In this document: positions 1 to 11,953 of the stretch, in pieces
How positions within the stretch are numbered: the stretch's first letter is position 1
Layout: the number at the start of each line of letters is the position of its first letter
Assembly (NCBI GenBank): GCA_934630385.1
Contig: CAKTWE010000053.1
Coordinates: forward strand, 1-12,063
Source: an uncultured Collinsella sp.
GTDB taxonomy: Bacteria > Actinomycetota > Coriobacteriia > Coriobacteriales > Coriobacteriaceae
Direction of reading: 5' to 3'
Length of the DNA: 12,063 nucleotides
The notes under the pieces: model-generated
What the model saw: the letters and a program-made list of their open reading frames with translations, nothing else
Told to the model about the DNA's origin: nothing
The model's database searches: none
Position numbers and translations under genes: made by a program

Positions 1-71
1 CTGCTCTACAGTCCTGCTCGCACGGAGAGCACATTAAGTGCTCTCCGGCTCGTGCGGAACTCGCGATAAAC
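1..71. repeat. Structured repeat, copy 1 (core and right side; left arm is outside the window)
   Basis: This stretch shares its layout with the element at 11460-11592. Both have CTGCTCTACAGTCCTGC (1-17), a variable 9-bp stem closing an ATTAA loop (arms 24-32 and 38-46), and then GTGCGGAACTCGCGAYAAAC (52-71). The stem sequence differs between copies but pairs perfectly in each, with CAC-ATTAA-GTG kept at the tip. In copy 2 a long outer inverted repeat flanks the core. Here only the right flank (from 68) is visible, so an outer stem cannot be tested. It could be a structured RNA, a dispersed palindromic element or an elaborate transcription-end structure. Confidence 0.7.
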
Positions 72-199
72 CTTGTATACGCCCGCCCGCTCCCGAGGGG
101 CATCTCTCATGCAAAAACTTTTGTCGGGTAAAGTCCGAGGTCAGTGGCGTTTTATACCGAGAAACTCAAAAAAAGTTGAAAATTCATTACAAATTTGCG

Positions 200-9263: not shown

Positions 9264-11456
9264 GTGGCCAAGACGGTATATTCCGATAACCAACAAAATG
9301 TCGATGCTCTGGCTGAGCGTCTGAGCGGACAAACGTCGCTTTCTGCCGAGCGGGCAAAGCTGGTTGCCTACGACCTGCTCTGCCGCAAGGCACTCAAGAT
9401 TAAGTCGAGCGCGCTGGCACAGATTTTCCGCTCCGTCGATAAGGAATGTGACACCAAGGCGATGCGCGATGAGCTCATCGCGGCAAAGATTGTGACCAAG
9501 ATCGAGGGCAGCGGCATTAATGGTCGCCCTGCCTTCTACACCATTAATGCCGAGATCCACGATGCCCAGGAGCAGCCCGTCGAGGTCGCCGAAGGGGCTG
9601 GCGCTGAGGATTCCGTTGAGACGGCTACCGTGGAAGAAGCTGCTTCGCGCGAGCATATCGATACCGATGAGCTGCTCGATGAGAACGTCGTTCGCGCTTT
9701 TACCGCCAAGGCGGGTCGCGGTGGCTTTGGCGGGGGCGGCAAGCGCGATGCGCAGCGCCGCGCTCAGCAGGAGCGCTTCCGTCGCGCCGTTGCTCAAAAG
9801 GATGAGCTCGATACCGAGGCTGCTGAGATCGAGGTCGCTGTCGAATCGCAGAAGCCCGCGAAGGAGCAAAAGCCCGTGGAGGCCCAAGAGCCCAAGCGCC
9901 GTCGCGGTGCTCACTTTAAGGCTGCACAGCAGGATGTCGTGCATGAGGTCGAAGAGCCTTCCGAGGTTGCAGACGATGTTGAAGAGTCTGCCAAGAGGGC
10001 TCCGGGTTCGTGTCGTCCCGGCCGCGGTTTTGCGGGACGCGCATATCCCGTAAAGCGTCAGGAGAAGGGCGAGCCGGCTTCGACCGCTCAGGCCGAGAAG
10101 GCCGAACAAACCGAGAAAACCGTTGAGCCGGCGGCTCGCGAGCAGCAAGCTTCCGAGTCACAGCCTGCGGCTGACACCGAGGTCAAAGCTCAACAGACTG
10201 CTGATAAGCAGGCGGGGGAGAGCGCCTCAGGCAAGCCCCGCCGTCGTCGTCACCGCGGCGGTCGTGGCTCAAATGCCGAGGCCGTGGCCGAGAAGGCAGC
10301 GACACAAAACGGAGACGAGAAGGTCGAGACCCCGGTGGAGCAGGTCAAGCGTCAGCCGGCGAAGGAGGCCAAGTCCGATCGTCCGCAAAAGCGCTCGTCC
10401 GCGCCCAAGCAGGAACGCAATACCCGGGCAGATTCCAAGCGTAAGCCCCGTGCACAGGCTGAGCCTGCCGCGGCTGATAATGCTGCCCAGCGGTCTGAGT
10501 CGACCGTCCACGGCGAGGTTTCGGCGTTTGCCCTGGCCCGCGTACTGGGCAGGCAGCTGCTCAAGGTTGTCCCCACGCCTATGGCACTCTCCAAGATCAA
10601 GGAGCAGCAGACCCAGATTGTAAAGGTTGAAGGCAAGGACGGTAAAAAGACGCCGCAGCGCGCTCAGCACAATGAAATGTCCAATCGCAAAATCGCTGAG
10701 GAGATTGCGATTATCCAGGCATGGATTGAACAGAACCGCGGTGCCGATACGCCGGTTGCCTCGCGTCGCCAGCGTGCCTACCAGATCTTCAACGATGAGA
10801 AGGCCTTCGACGGCAAGCATGGTGAGCGCCTGATCAGGCGCATGACCGAAAAGGGCATCAGCATGCAGGCAATCAAGGTTGCTCCCAACCGTCCTGTGCA
10901 CTTTACGGGCTTCTTTACGCTGGGCGCCGACAAGCCGTTCATTATGGTCGAGAACCTGGATACCTATGACGAGATCGTCAAACTCCTGCGCGGACGCAAA
11001 CATGCCAAGCTTTTTGGTACTAAGGTAGGCGGCGTAATCTTTGGCGGCGGCTGCAAGGCGAGCGTCTCGCATGCACTTGATGATTATCTGGCGGAGATCG
11101 GCTATCGCTTTAGCTATCTCTACTACGTGGGCGACATCGATCGAGAGGGCGCGCGTATTGTCGAGCAGGCTCGCAACGCCAACGTCGTTGAGATTCGCCT
11201 GCATGCCGGAATGTATCGCGCCATGCTTGCCGAGCATAAGCGTCGCGTGAAGGCGGGCGGCGAGTGCGAGCCCGCGGCGGCCAACCAGGGCGTGCCGCAG
11301 AATCTGGCGGCCACGATTAAAGACCTGCCCATGGTTACGCGCGTGCAGTTCCGCAACGTGCTGCGCGAGGGCGGACGAATTCCGCAGGAGATCCTGATGA
11401 CCGCCGACTATCGGGATGGCGACTCGGGAAGCTTCGACCGCATGCTGAATAATTAG
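9264..11456 (+). CDS. Toprim-like protein resembling the Wadjet JetD C-terminal/DUF2220 family, with long disordered linker
   Basis: GTG at 9264 follows AAAGGGG (9253-9259) and gives 730 residues. The alternative upstream ATGs in frame lack such a site. Residues 1-95 look like a small helical domain ending in a possible winged-helix hairpin (IVTKIEGSGINGRPAFYTI). Residues about 100-415 are low-complexity, rich in Ala, Glu, Lys, Gln and Arg, with basic or RGG-like patches at 149-166 and 325-336 (GKPRRRRHRGGRG, 323-335). Residues about 415-730 form the conserved region. MVENLDTYDE (E563), VIFGGGCKASVSHA (591-604) and YYVGDIDREGARI (D624, D626) match the Glu plus D-x-D pattern of Toprim nucleases. 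They resemble the JetD C-terminal domain, whose usual forms are VEN and WGDID. No jetA, jetB or jetC lies in the window, so a Wadjet role is not shown. Nucleic-acid binding or cleavage is inferred; family assignment rests on motif reading. Confidence 0.7.
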   Translation: MAKTVYSDNQQNVDALAERLSGQTSLSAERAKLVAYDLLCRKALKIKSSALAQIFRSVDKECDTKAMRDELIAAKIVTKIEGSGINGRPAFYTINAEIHDAQEQPVEVAEGAGAEDSVETATVEEAASREHIDTDELLDENVVRAFTAKAGRGGFGGGGKRDAQRRAQQERFRRAVAQKDELDTEAAEIEVAVESQKPAKEQKPVEAQEPKRRRGAHFKAAQQDVVHEVEEPSEVADDVEESAKRAPGSCRPGRGFAGRAYPVKRQEKGEPASTAQAEKAEQTEKTVEPAAREQQASESQPAADTEVKAQQTADKQAGESASGKPRRRRHRGGRGSNAEAVAEKAATQNGDEKVETPVEQVKRQPAKEAKSDRPQKRSSAPKQERNTRADSKRKPRAQAEPAAADNAAQRSESTVHGEVSAFALARVLGRQLLKVVPTPMALSKIKEQQTQIVKVEGKDGKKTPQRAQHNEMSNRKIAEEIAIIQAWIEQNRGADTPVASRRQRAYQIFNDEKAFDGKHGERLIRRMTEKGISMQAIKVAPNRPVHFTGFFTLGADKPFIMVENLDTYDEIVKLLRGRKHAKLFGTKVGGVIFGGGCKASVSHALDDYLAEIGYRFSYLYYVGDIDREGARIVEQARNANVVEIRLHAGMYRAMLAEHKRRVKAGGECEPAAANQGVPQNLAATIKDLPMVTRVQFRNVLREGGRIPQEILMTADYRDGDSGSFDRMLNN

Positions 11457-11459
11457 GGA

Positions 11460-11592
11460 CGTGTGGCCCCGGCGGGCCGGGCATTAAGTTTGCTGCTCTA
11501 CAGTCCTGCGCAAGACGAAGGCCACATTAAGTGGCCTTCTTTGCGTGCGGAACTCGCGACAAACTTAATGCCCGGCCCGCCGGGGCCACACG
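11460..11592. repeat. Structured repeat, copy 2, with perfect 32-bp outer inverted repeat
   Basis: The left arm (11460-11491) and right arm (11561-11592) are exact reverse complements over 32 bp. They enclose CTGCTCTACAGTCCTGC (11493-11509), a perfect 9-bp hairpin (arms 11517-11525 and 11531-11539, loop ATTAA) and GTGCGGAACTCGCGAYAAAC (11545-11564, overlapping the right arm by four bases). In addition AGTCCTGC can pair with GCGGAACT over seven of eight positions. The core recurs at 1-71 with a different but still paired inner stem. It starts three bases after the JetD-like stop codon and could end that transcript, though no T-run follows. It could also be a structured RNA or a mobile palindromic unit. 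Confidence 0.85.
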
Positions 11593-11690
11593 GCACTTGG
11601 TTGTCGCAAGCGGCTCGCTTTTCGGAACTGGGCTGATGGACACGTTCCAAAATCTACCACAGTCGCTGTACGGGGTGTCTATAAAGAGCC

Positions 11691-11920
11691 GTGGTCAAAA
11701 AACATCAAATATGAGTACTGGTGCTCTTTTGGTAGCAGAAATTTTGACCTCATATTAGATGATTTGACGTGTCGATCAAGCAGATATGCTGCCGTATCTC
11801 CTCAAGTGTTCAATAAAAGATAATCTTGATGCGAATTAATCTCATTAACAGCTTCTTTTATTAACGTAAATAATGTAGCTACAACGGTAGCAGTACTCAT
11901 ATTTGCTGTATTTTGGCCAC
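11691..11920. repeat. Diverged 30-bp inverted repeat pair flanking AT-rich DNA
   Basis: The 30 bases at 11691-11720 and the reverse complement of 11891-11920 agree at 27 of 30 positions, including a shared CAAATATGAGTACTG. The arms face each other across 170 bp. Each arm is itself followed inward by related sequence (TGGTGC and TGCTACC). Inside is a weaker inverted repeat, AATAAAAGA with TCTTTTATT. The arrangement resembles the ends of a small non-autonomous mobile unit or a pair of facing regulatory sites. No target-site duplication could be identified with confidence. Confidence 0.65.
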
Positions 11921-11953
11921 AGCCCTTCGGAAGGTCCTCGAAAATAGCTCCGT

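Follow-up and report, generated by a model that had tools for sequence, protein, structure and literature searches.

'I-shaped' intrinsic terminators, which lack a U-tract, have reportedly been found in mycobacteria. The REP/BIME sequences of the GTAG and CGTC superfamilies are hypothesised, in the available text of PMC3733652, to have roles in supercoiling, termination and mRNA stabilisation. A survey of structured RNAs in the human microbiome lists 250 palindromic sequences among 3161 candidates, 230 predicted to form terminators (PMC8040213, in its available part). In hairpins, template switching is documented to produce arm homogenisation, compensatory multibase changes and spacer inversion (available parts of PMC8604942 and PMC8794818). 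The element described here is similar to REP/BIME sequences in being a short intergenic palindrome found in repeated copies. Still, REPs as presented in the available text of PMC3733652 are 20-40 bp long and carry an unpaired GTAG/CGTC tag, whereas the Coriobacteriia element has a free stem, fixed loops and a length of ~130 nt.

The window analysed here is a stretch of 12,063 nt from an uncultured Collinsella sp. (contig CAKTWE010000053.1), and it holds two copies of the element (Table 1). A sequence-only reading had proposed that the two copies keep blocks of 17 and 20 bases and a common tip, with an inner stem that changes its letters while remaining paired. This description was borne out: the 17-base block (CTGCTCTACAGTCCTGC) is identical at 1-17 and 11493-11509, the 20-base block agrees in 19 of 20 positions between 52-71 and 11545-11564 (one T/C change), the tip CAC-ATTAA-GTG is present in both copies, and the inner stems 24-32/38-46 (GGAGAGCAC/GTGCTCTCC) and 11517-11525/11531-11539 are both fully paired. 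What had been overlooked is the pair of 38-nt outer arms of copy 2; the stretch 11493-11564 is the middle of a 143-nt hairpin, 11455-11597. The RNA fold of 11440-11610 (171 nt) has a free energy of −118.1 kcal/mol with z = −14, and none of 200 shuffled sequences was as stable; the single-stranded DNA fold of 11455-11597 has z = −15.

Table 1. Positions in the window of the two elements and of the gene that carries element 2
Feature	Position	Strand	Details
Left outer arm, element 2	11455..11492	+	38 nt, 95% complementary to 11560-11597
Core block 1, element 2	11493..11509	+	CTGCTCTACAGTCCTGC
Inner stem 5′ strand, element 2	11517..11525	+	GAAGGCCAC
Terminal loop ATTAA, element 2	11526..11530	+	sequence and fold
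Inner stem 3′ strand, element 2	11531..11539	+	GTGGCCTTC
Core block 2, element 2	11545..11564	+	GTGCGGAACTCGCGACAAAC
Right outer arm, element 2	11560..11597	+	inverted repeat with 11455-11492, fold
Gene carrying element 2 at its 3′ end	9264..11456	+	730 aa from scored start; longest ORF from 9117
Core of element 1	1..71	+	left arm lies outside, removed by window start
Right outer arm, element 1	68..101	+	upstream of cstA-like gene

The neighbouring genes were recorded for both copies. Copy 1 is upstream of a cstA-like gene, while copy 2 stands at the 3′ end of gene 9264-11456, its left arm sharing the last two bases of the TAG stop codon (11454-11456). Searches of Pfam and NCBIfam (E≤1e-5) gave no match for the product of the latter gene; the N-terminal part of this product is long and of low complexity. 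Further along, at 11684-11927, there is a MITE-like stretch of 244 bp with terminal inverted repeats of 37 nt (86% complementary), the left end of which is also seen 3′ of the orthologous gene in L018, L041 and L083.

The fragment of element 1, with its incomplete stem, has z = −2.1 (7 of 200 shuffles fold equally well). Its right arm agrees with the orthologous element of other genomes. The core is reversed with respect to the nine of 43 genus genomes that match at this locus, and its orientation in the window was found in none of the 43 with up to three mismatches allowed; as the reversed core is at a contig edge, it might stem from an error of assembly. The region 299-436, directly upstream of the cstA-like gene, has a candidate leader peptide, MFTHQLNIISVVII (299-343), and, between this peptide and the gene, an intrinsic-terminator-like hairpin at 392-431 with a T-run. 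Judged by its letters, this region resembles an attenuator of the Ile/Val type for a transporter of the CstA family.

That there might be only two copies made by a recent local duplication had been considered in the sequence-only reading; this was rejected, as many copies were found in a single chromosome (~32 of the window's type), in the genus and in other Coriobacteriia. An exact core scan of genome_contigs gave at least 120 stretches, and all 120 among the matches listed are titled Collinsella. One exact core pattern had no matches in viral_contigs, and a phage-borne element was rejected. At the genus level the core-and-stem model R1 matched 39 of 43 genomes; the number of R1 matches per genome (up to 54) includes both strands of each palindrome. 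One of the copy sets analysed had 94 unique sequences among 116 copies.

The Collinsella-group chromosome G011 is a single contig of 2,306,349 bp (loci L151-L266). We searched it de novo and found 179 inverted repeats whose arms are ≥18 bp long and ≤110 nt apart. A motif filter gave 46 elements: 32 of the window's type (fam1) and 14 of a second type (fam2) with the core GTCCTCGGACATG..stem..GTCCTGCGGAAT and arms variable as in fam1; the arms are shorter than 18 bp in three of the 46. The same chromosome has palindrome families with conserved arms (ttgcggtgaaatagggactgttt; tctcgatctgtaacatct; tcattggggacgttctt; catctactacgttt; aaaccatcacaacattcga) at 247636, 468077, 967539, 1078004, 2194146 and elsewhere, which by inspection are apparently MITEs. 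Two near-identical 164-bp palindromic elements are situated ~0.8 kb apart in L184 (677437-677600 and 678262-678425). Variable-arm hairpins with other recurrent tips, GGGCTTCGCGA; GAACGACTYTGC..; TGCTCAAACATTCTCGCTTCGCTGCGAAACTGCGCG, at 1525879, 1527048, 1527235; 358438, 1791962; 709797, 1618986, are possibly additional core families.

The element has a nearly fixed core of ~70 letters placed on a long stem that differs from gene to gene. A conserved asymmetric internal loop (5′ GUCCU.. / ..GCGGAA) lies between the inner and outer stems, and the outer stem, usually 20-45 bp long, has letters specific to each locus. We aligned 28 copies, the window copy and 27 of 37 distinct copies chosen as gap-free or differing from the window copy; L030, L043, L055, L079 and L085, with arms chimeric or poorly paired, were left out (the chimeras L030, L055, L079 and L085 may in part be draft-assembly joins). 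In this alignment 98.7% of 952 cells are paired, 29 of 34 pairs have changed on both sides and none of the 25 modelled outer pairs is constant. Covariation scored 0.795, versus 0.193 in shuffled and at most 0.156 in slid alignments, in agreement with the earlier idea that covariation with fixed flanks indicates a structured element. Further copies with unpaired inner stems, which would have spoken against that idea, were absent among the 28 chosen copies (inner stem 100% paired); the inner stem is partly unpaired or chimeric in L079 and L096. Yet selection on RNA is not proven by covariation alone, since template switching between inverted arms yields a similar pattern (available parts of PMC8794818 and PMC8604942). 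The case for a function as RNA leans more on strand and position (sense, directly after stop codons) than on covariation.

In the arms of 142 unique elements (those with arms passing a score) 97.8% of pairs are Watson-Crick, 0.8% G-U and 1.4% mismatched; for 46 elements that do not come from the C. aerofaciens group the values are 95.6%, 1.0% and 3.4%. By a different measure, the G-U share of the full fold, the elements have 5.8% (sense) and 3.3% (antisense) versus 9.2% in U-tract terminator hairpins of the same genome. In comparisons of all pairs among 153 unique elements, seven pairs had similar arms with unrelated flanks; four of these are due to one flipped element and three involve L117. 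Among the same 153 elements there were 382 same-locus pairs, and in 86 of them the arms are <60% identical. Close pairs (≤5% divergence; 97 non-independent pairs) have 33 double versus 118 single arm changes.

A covariance-model search of Coriobacteriia, proposed in the sequence-only reading, did reveal copies beyond the window. Model R1 matched at least 112 of 296 genomes of the class and model R2, built from a 36-copy alignment, at least 151 of 296 (E≤1e-6). In a phylum sample R2 matched at least 25 of 396 genomes (E≤1e-5); 24 of the 25 were already in the genus or class sets, and the match in the remaining one (G524) is weak. In these large searches 10-13 candidates were scored per genome, so the numbers for class and phylum are minimum values; weak matches may be long hairpins without the core. 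In 30 loci from twelve genomes (L297-L326) the core is found with arms and inner stems that are unrelated; L299, L301, L312, L325 and L326 have a core variant that deviates in core letters. The 36 diverse copies (the window copy and 35 of 47 candidates) have CAGTCCT and TGCGGAACT invariant, with a covariation score of 0.663 versus 0.208 in shuffled alignments; the invariance of AACT is partly by choice, because the copies excluded include a subtype (7 of the 47) with the ending GCGGAATCT. Common to all 47 candidates are GTCCT and GCGGAA only, of which GTCCT and GAA were required by the extraction pattern. The window has no match in Rfam 15 at E≤1, and on the element 20 of the 30 loci L297-L326 have only sub-threshold matches to miRNA-like hairpins; with no match above threshold, a plain known RNA family was rejected.

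We observed that 29 of the 46 elements in G011 follow a stop codon within 100 nt in sense orientation; with elements placed at random in intergenic DNA (2000 simulations) the mean was 2.7 and the maximum 11. In these 29 the core starts 38-97 nt, and the base of the left arm is 4-46 nt, from the stop. One element is antisense after a stop (null 2.7) and four are beside a start codon of the opposite strand (null 1.8, 95% range 0-5), at 46-63 nt from it; 12 are in none of these classes, which leaves 17 of 46 that are not sense after a stop. The best-scoring loci, L143-L150 and L297-L360 (L329 belongs to G011), where gene calls are rough, contain 60 elements, 29 of them sense after a stop, every one at 42-68 nt. 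Of the others, 8 are next to a start, 5 lie antisense behind a stop, 5 are in predicted ORFs and 13 are in no class. Genes were called by ORF scores with a codon model trained on Collinsella, which may miscall outside this genus; 5 of 41 non-aerofaciens elements were inside predicted ORFs.

In G011 a T-run adjoins one of the 26 stop-adjacent element hairpins. A loose scan detected a terminator-like site ≤250 nt downstream of the core for nine of the 29 elements in sense orientation (in the control, ≤250 nt from the stop, for 172 of 414 plus-strand genes); in these nine cases the element would be an extra hairpin and not the terminator. At 14 of 46 loci complementarity extends past the arms toward the coding sequence (local score ≥25; mismatched pairs reach this score in 1.7% and control genes in 4.1%). 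Genes upstream of the 29 sense elements have a Pfam match in 28 cases, one of them to an uncharacterised domain (DUF711). Many are housekeeping genes (chaperonin, class II aldolase, PFOR, PEP carboxylase, phosphotransacetylase, ValRS, PNPase, anaerobic RNR, deformylase, GatB), and there are genes for transporters and hydrolases as well. Outward-pointing elements are found at both ends of valS and of a GHMP-kinase gene (451462/454312 and 1356996/1358024). A replication-strand signal was rejected, with 16 co-oriented versus 16 anti-oriented fam1 elements and 8 versus 6 for fam2. Inverted pairs with 204-226 bp between cores and chimeric arms first pointed to an invertible promoter switch; this was rejected as the main function, as 36 of the 46 elements are outside close inverted pairs and flips are rare.

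Comparison of strains revealed exchange of whole hairpins. Relatives at the locus of element 2 (L119, L071 and L059) have compensated pair changes in the outer arm or core; a second hairpin allele follows the same gene in L018, L041, L073, L083, L092 and L097, an intermediate one in L014, and in G011 the right half of the window's allele comes after a different long hairpin. For fba we read 30 loci. In the 22 of C. aerofaciens type the gene ends are almost the same (86-90 of the final 90 nt agree) and are followed by three unrelated hairpin alleles: A in 16 genomes (one truncated), B in three and C in three. Seven genomes have full A and then the right half of B (in one of them, L272, full A, half B and half A are consecutive), L283 has full B and then the right half of A, and L268 has lost the right half of C and kept the left. 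In eight outgroup species fba has U-tract terminators (L289, L292 and L294), other hairpins or no clear call. Cleavage of the hairpin, we infer, would initiate such allele swaps. Among 199 isolated elements, a set in which some pair loci at the edges of loci or contigs remain, there were 36 flipped versus 878 same-orientation pairs. Thirteen flipped pairs are due to the G011 element L180, inverted relative to 13 relatives with arms identical in some of them, two to the locus L224/L347/L342, and the rest to window copy 1 and the inverted-pair loci.

We read these data, with slightly more belief than doubt, as evidence of a Coriobacteriia-specific element predicted from its sequence and placement to act mainly as RNA, as the 3′-end hairpin of protein-coding mRNAs; it looks like an undescribed messenger-RNA end signal. 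The acting form is taken to be the transcribed RNA because of the strand bias and the tight distance from stop codons. The outer arms would fold as RNA polymerase exits the gene into a very stable hairpin, which would help to form the mRNA 3′ end, shield it against 3′ exonucleases or both, often without a U-tract terminator. The conserved internal loops would be read by a putative factor, so that the stem need only pair, and template switching together with recombination between strains would keep the arms matched, flip cores and swap whole hairpins. One could speculate, with little confidence, that Coriobacteriia have a dedicated, so far undescribed factor that recognises the core, which would give the class a third route to forming or protecting many of its mRNA 3′ ends, using neither a U-tract hairpin nor Rho; a fixed reader site would then sit on a gene-fitted stem rebuilt by template switching and allele exchange. 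The main facts against a purely RNA-based account are the low G-U content and the 17 of 46 copies located elsewhere. Some of these 17 could be a result of core flipping, and in the RNA reading low G-U is due to template switching; still, rare G-U pairs in the arms suit upkeep of both strands or of DNA at least as well as selection on single-stranded RNA.

Alternatively, the core could be a selfish palindrome of REP or MITE type, mobile now or once, that enters hairpins behind genes, with arms belonging to the target or made as fold-back copies. In line with this, the core is repeated with few alleles, and none of 134 strict core matches in the loaded loci (two of them in the window; 36 at locus edges, with gene context classified in part) is within a gene by ORF scoring. 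The core lies ≤15 nt from a contig end in 16 of the 120 listed stretches, as is typical of repeats, several MITE-like families are present in G011, hairpin alleles are exchanged as a whole with half-hairpins left behind, and complementarity runs past the arms toward coding sequence at the 14 of 46 loci. We nevertheless find this origin unlikely: arms are not shared between loci (the seven pairs among 153 unique elements), loci persist among strains (the 382 same-locus pairs), and elements are stop-adjacent and strand-biased. Moreover, the two Y1 transposase (Y1_Tnp) matches in G011, at 760130 and 881179, are at least 28 kb from all 46 elements (nearest ones at 731664 and 951214), and REPs driven by RAYT were rejected for this chromosome.

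The strand bias bears as well on a site acting in DNA, where a nuclease, gyrase or nucleoid protein would bind a cruciform or hairpin placed at gene ends to manage supercoiling or replication-transcription conflicts. Very low G-U means that both strands fold, fam1 has no replication-strand bias, antisense copies are present by start codons with similar spacing, and breakpoints fall within hairpins. But a strand-neutral site would not produce sense-to-antisense ratios at stops of 29:1 (G011) and 29:5 (the other loci), and the conserved core is asymmetric; we rate such a role as quite improbable. The double changes in close pairs and the core inversions might also be the work of mutation with no role for the hairpin, as template switching could perfect any long inverted repeat and has a published precedent (available part of PMC8794818). 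We give this very little weight, since it leaves the class-wide core and the fixed position after stops unexplained.

If the preferred reading, an mRNA 3′-end hairpin, is true, about half of the sampled Coriobacteriia genomes carry an uncatalogued structured element at mRNA ends. G011 would have tens of copies, several of them on genes of core metabolism, and the element would matter for the question of how transcripts end without U-tracts in common gut bacteria (Collinsella and other Coriobacteriia). Annotation and assembly would benefit, because draft contigs sometimes end at cores. Among the matches listed in searches of the open-licence literature we found no description of the element. 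PMC11109978 and PMC8632094 do not mention Collinsella or Coriobacter, and the available text of PMC3733652 does not mention Collinsella, Eggerthella or Actinobacteria. An instance of the Coriobacteriia element may already be among the 250 palindromic candidates of PMC8040213; the palindromic examples named in the available part of that paper are from Bacteroidetes.

Compared with known systems, REPs, MITEs and U-tract terminators each fail a tested defining feature. Some copies but not all have a CGTCC-like string at the foot of their left arm, and there is no conserved stem of 20-40 bp as in REPs, with outer pairs varying and arms being locus-specific. Terminal inverted repeats, expected of a MITE, are not common to all copies. 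The element resembles intrinsic terminators in having a strong GC-rich hairpin after the stop (29 of 46) and in taking the terminator position at fba; it differs in a much longer stem, a conserved internal-loop core and a T-run in one of 26. With template-switch hairpins (available parts of PMC8794818 and PMC8604942) it shares arm homogenisation, compensatory multibase changes and spacer inversion, but template switching is a mechanism of mutation and not a family, and the fixed core and position are outside its explanation. The elements offer an unusually clean natural record of template-switch evolution, with fixed loops, free stems, flipped cores, swapped alleles and few G-U intermediates.
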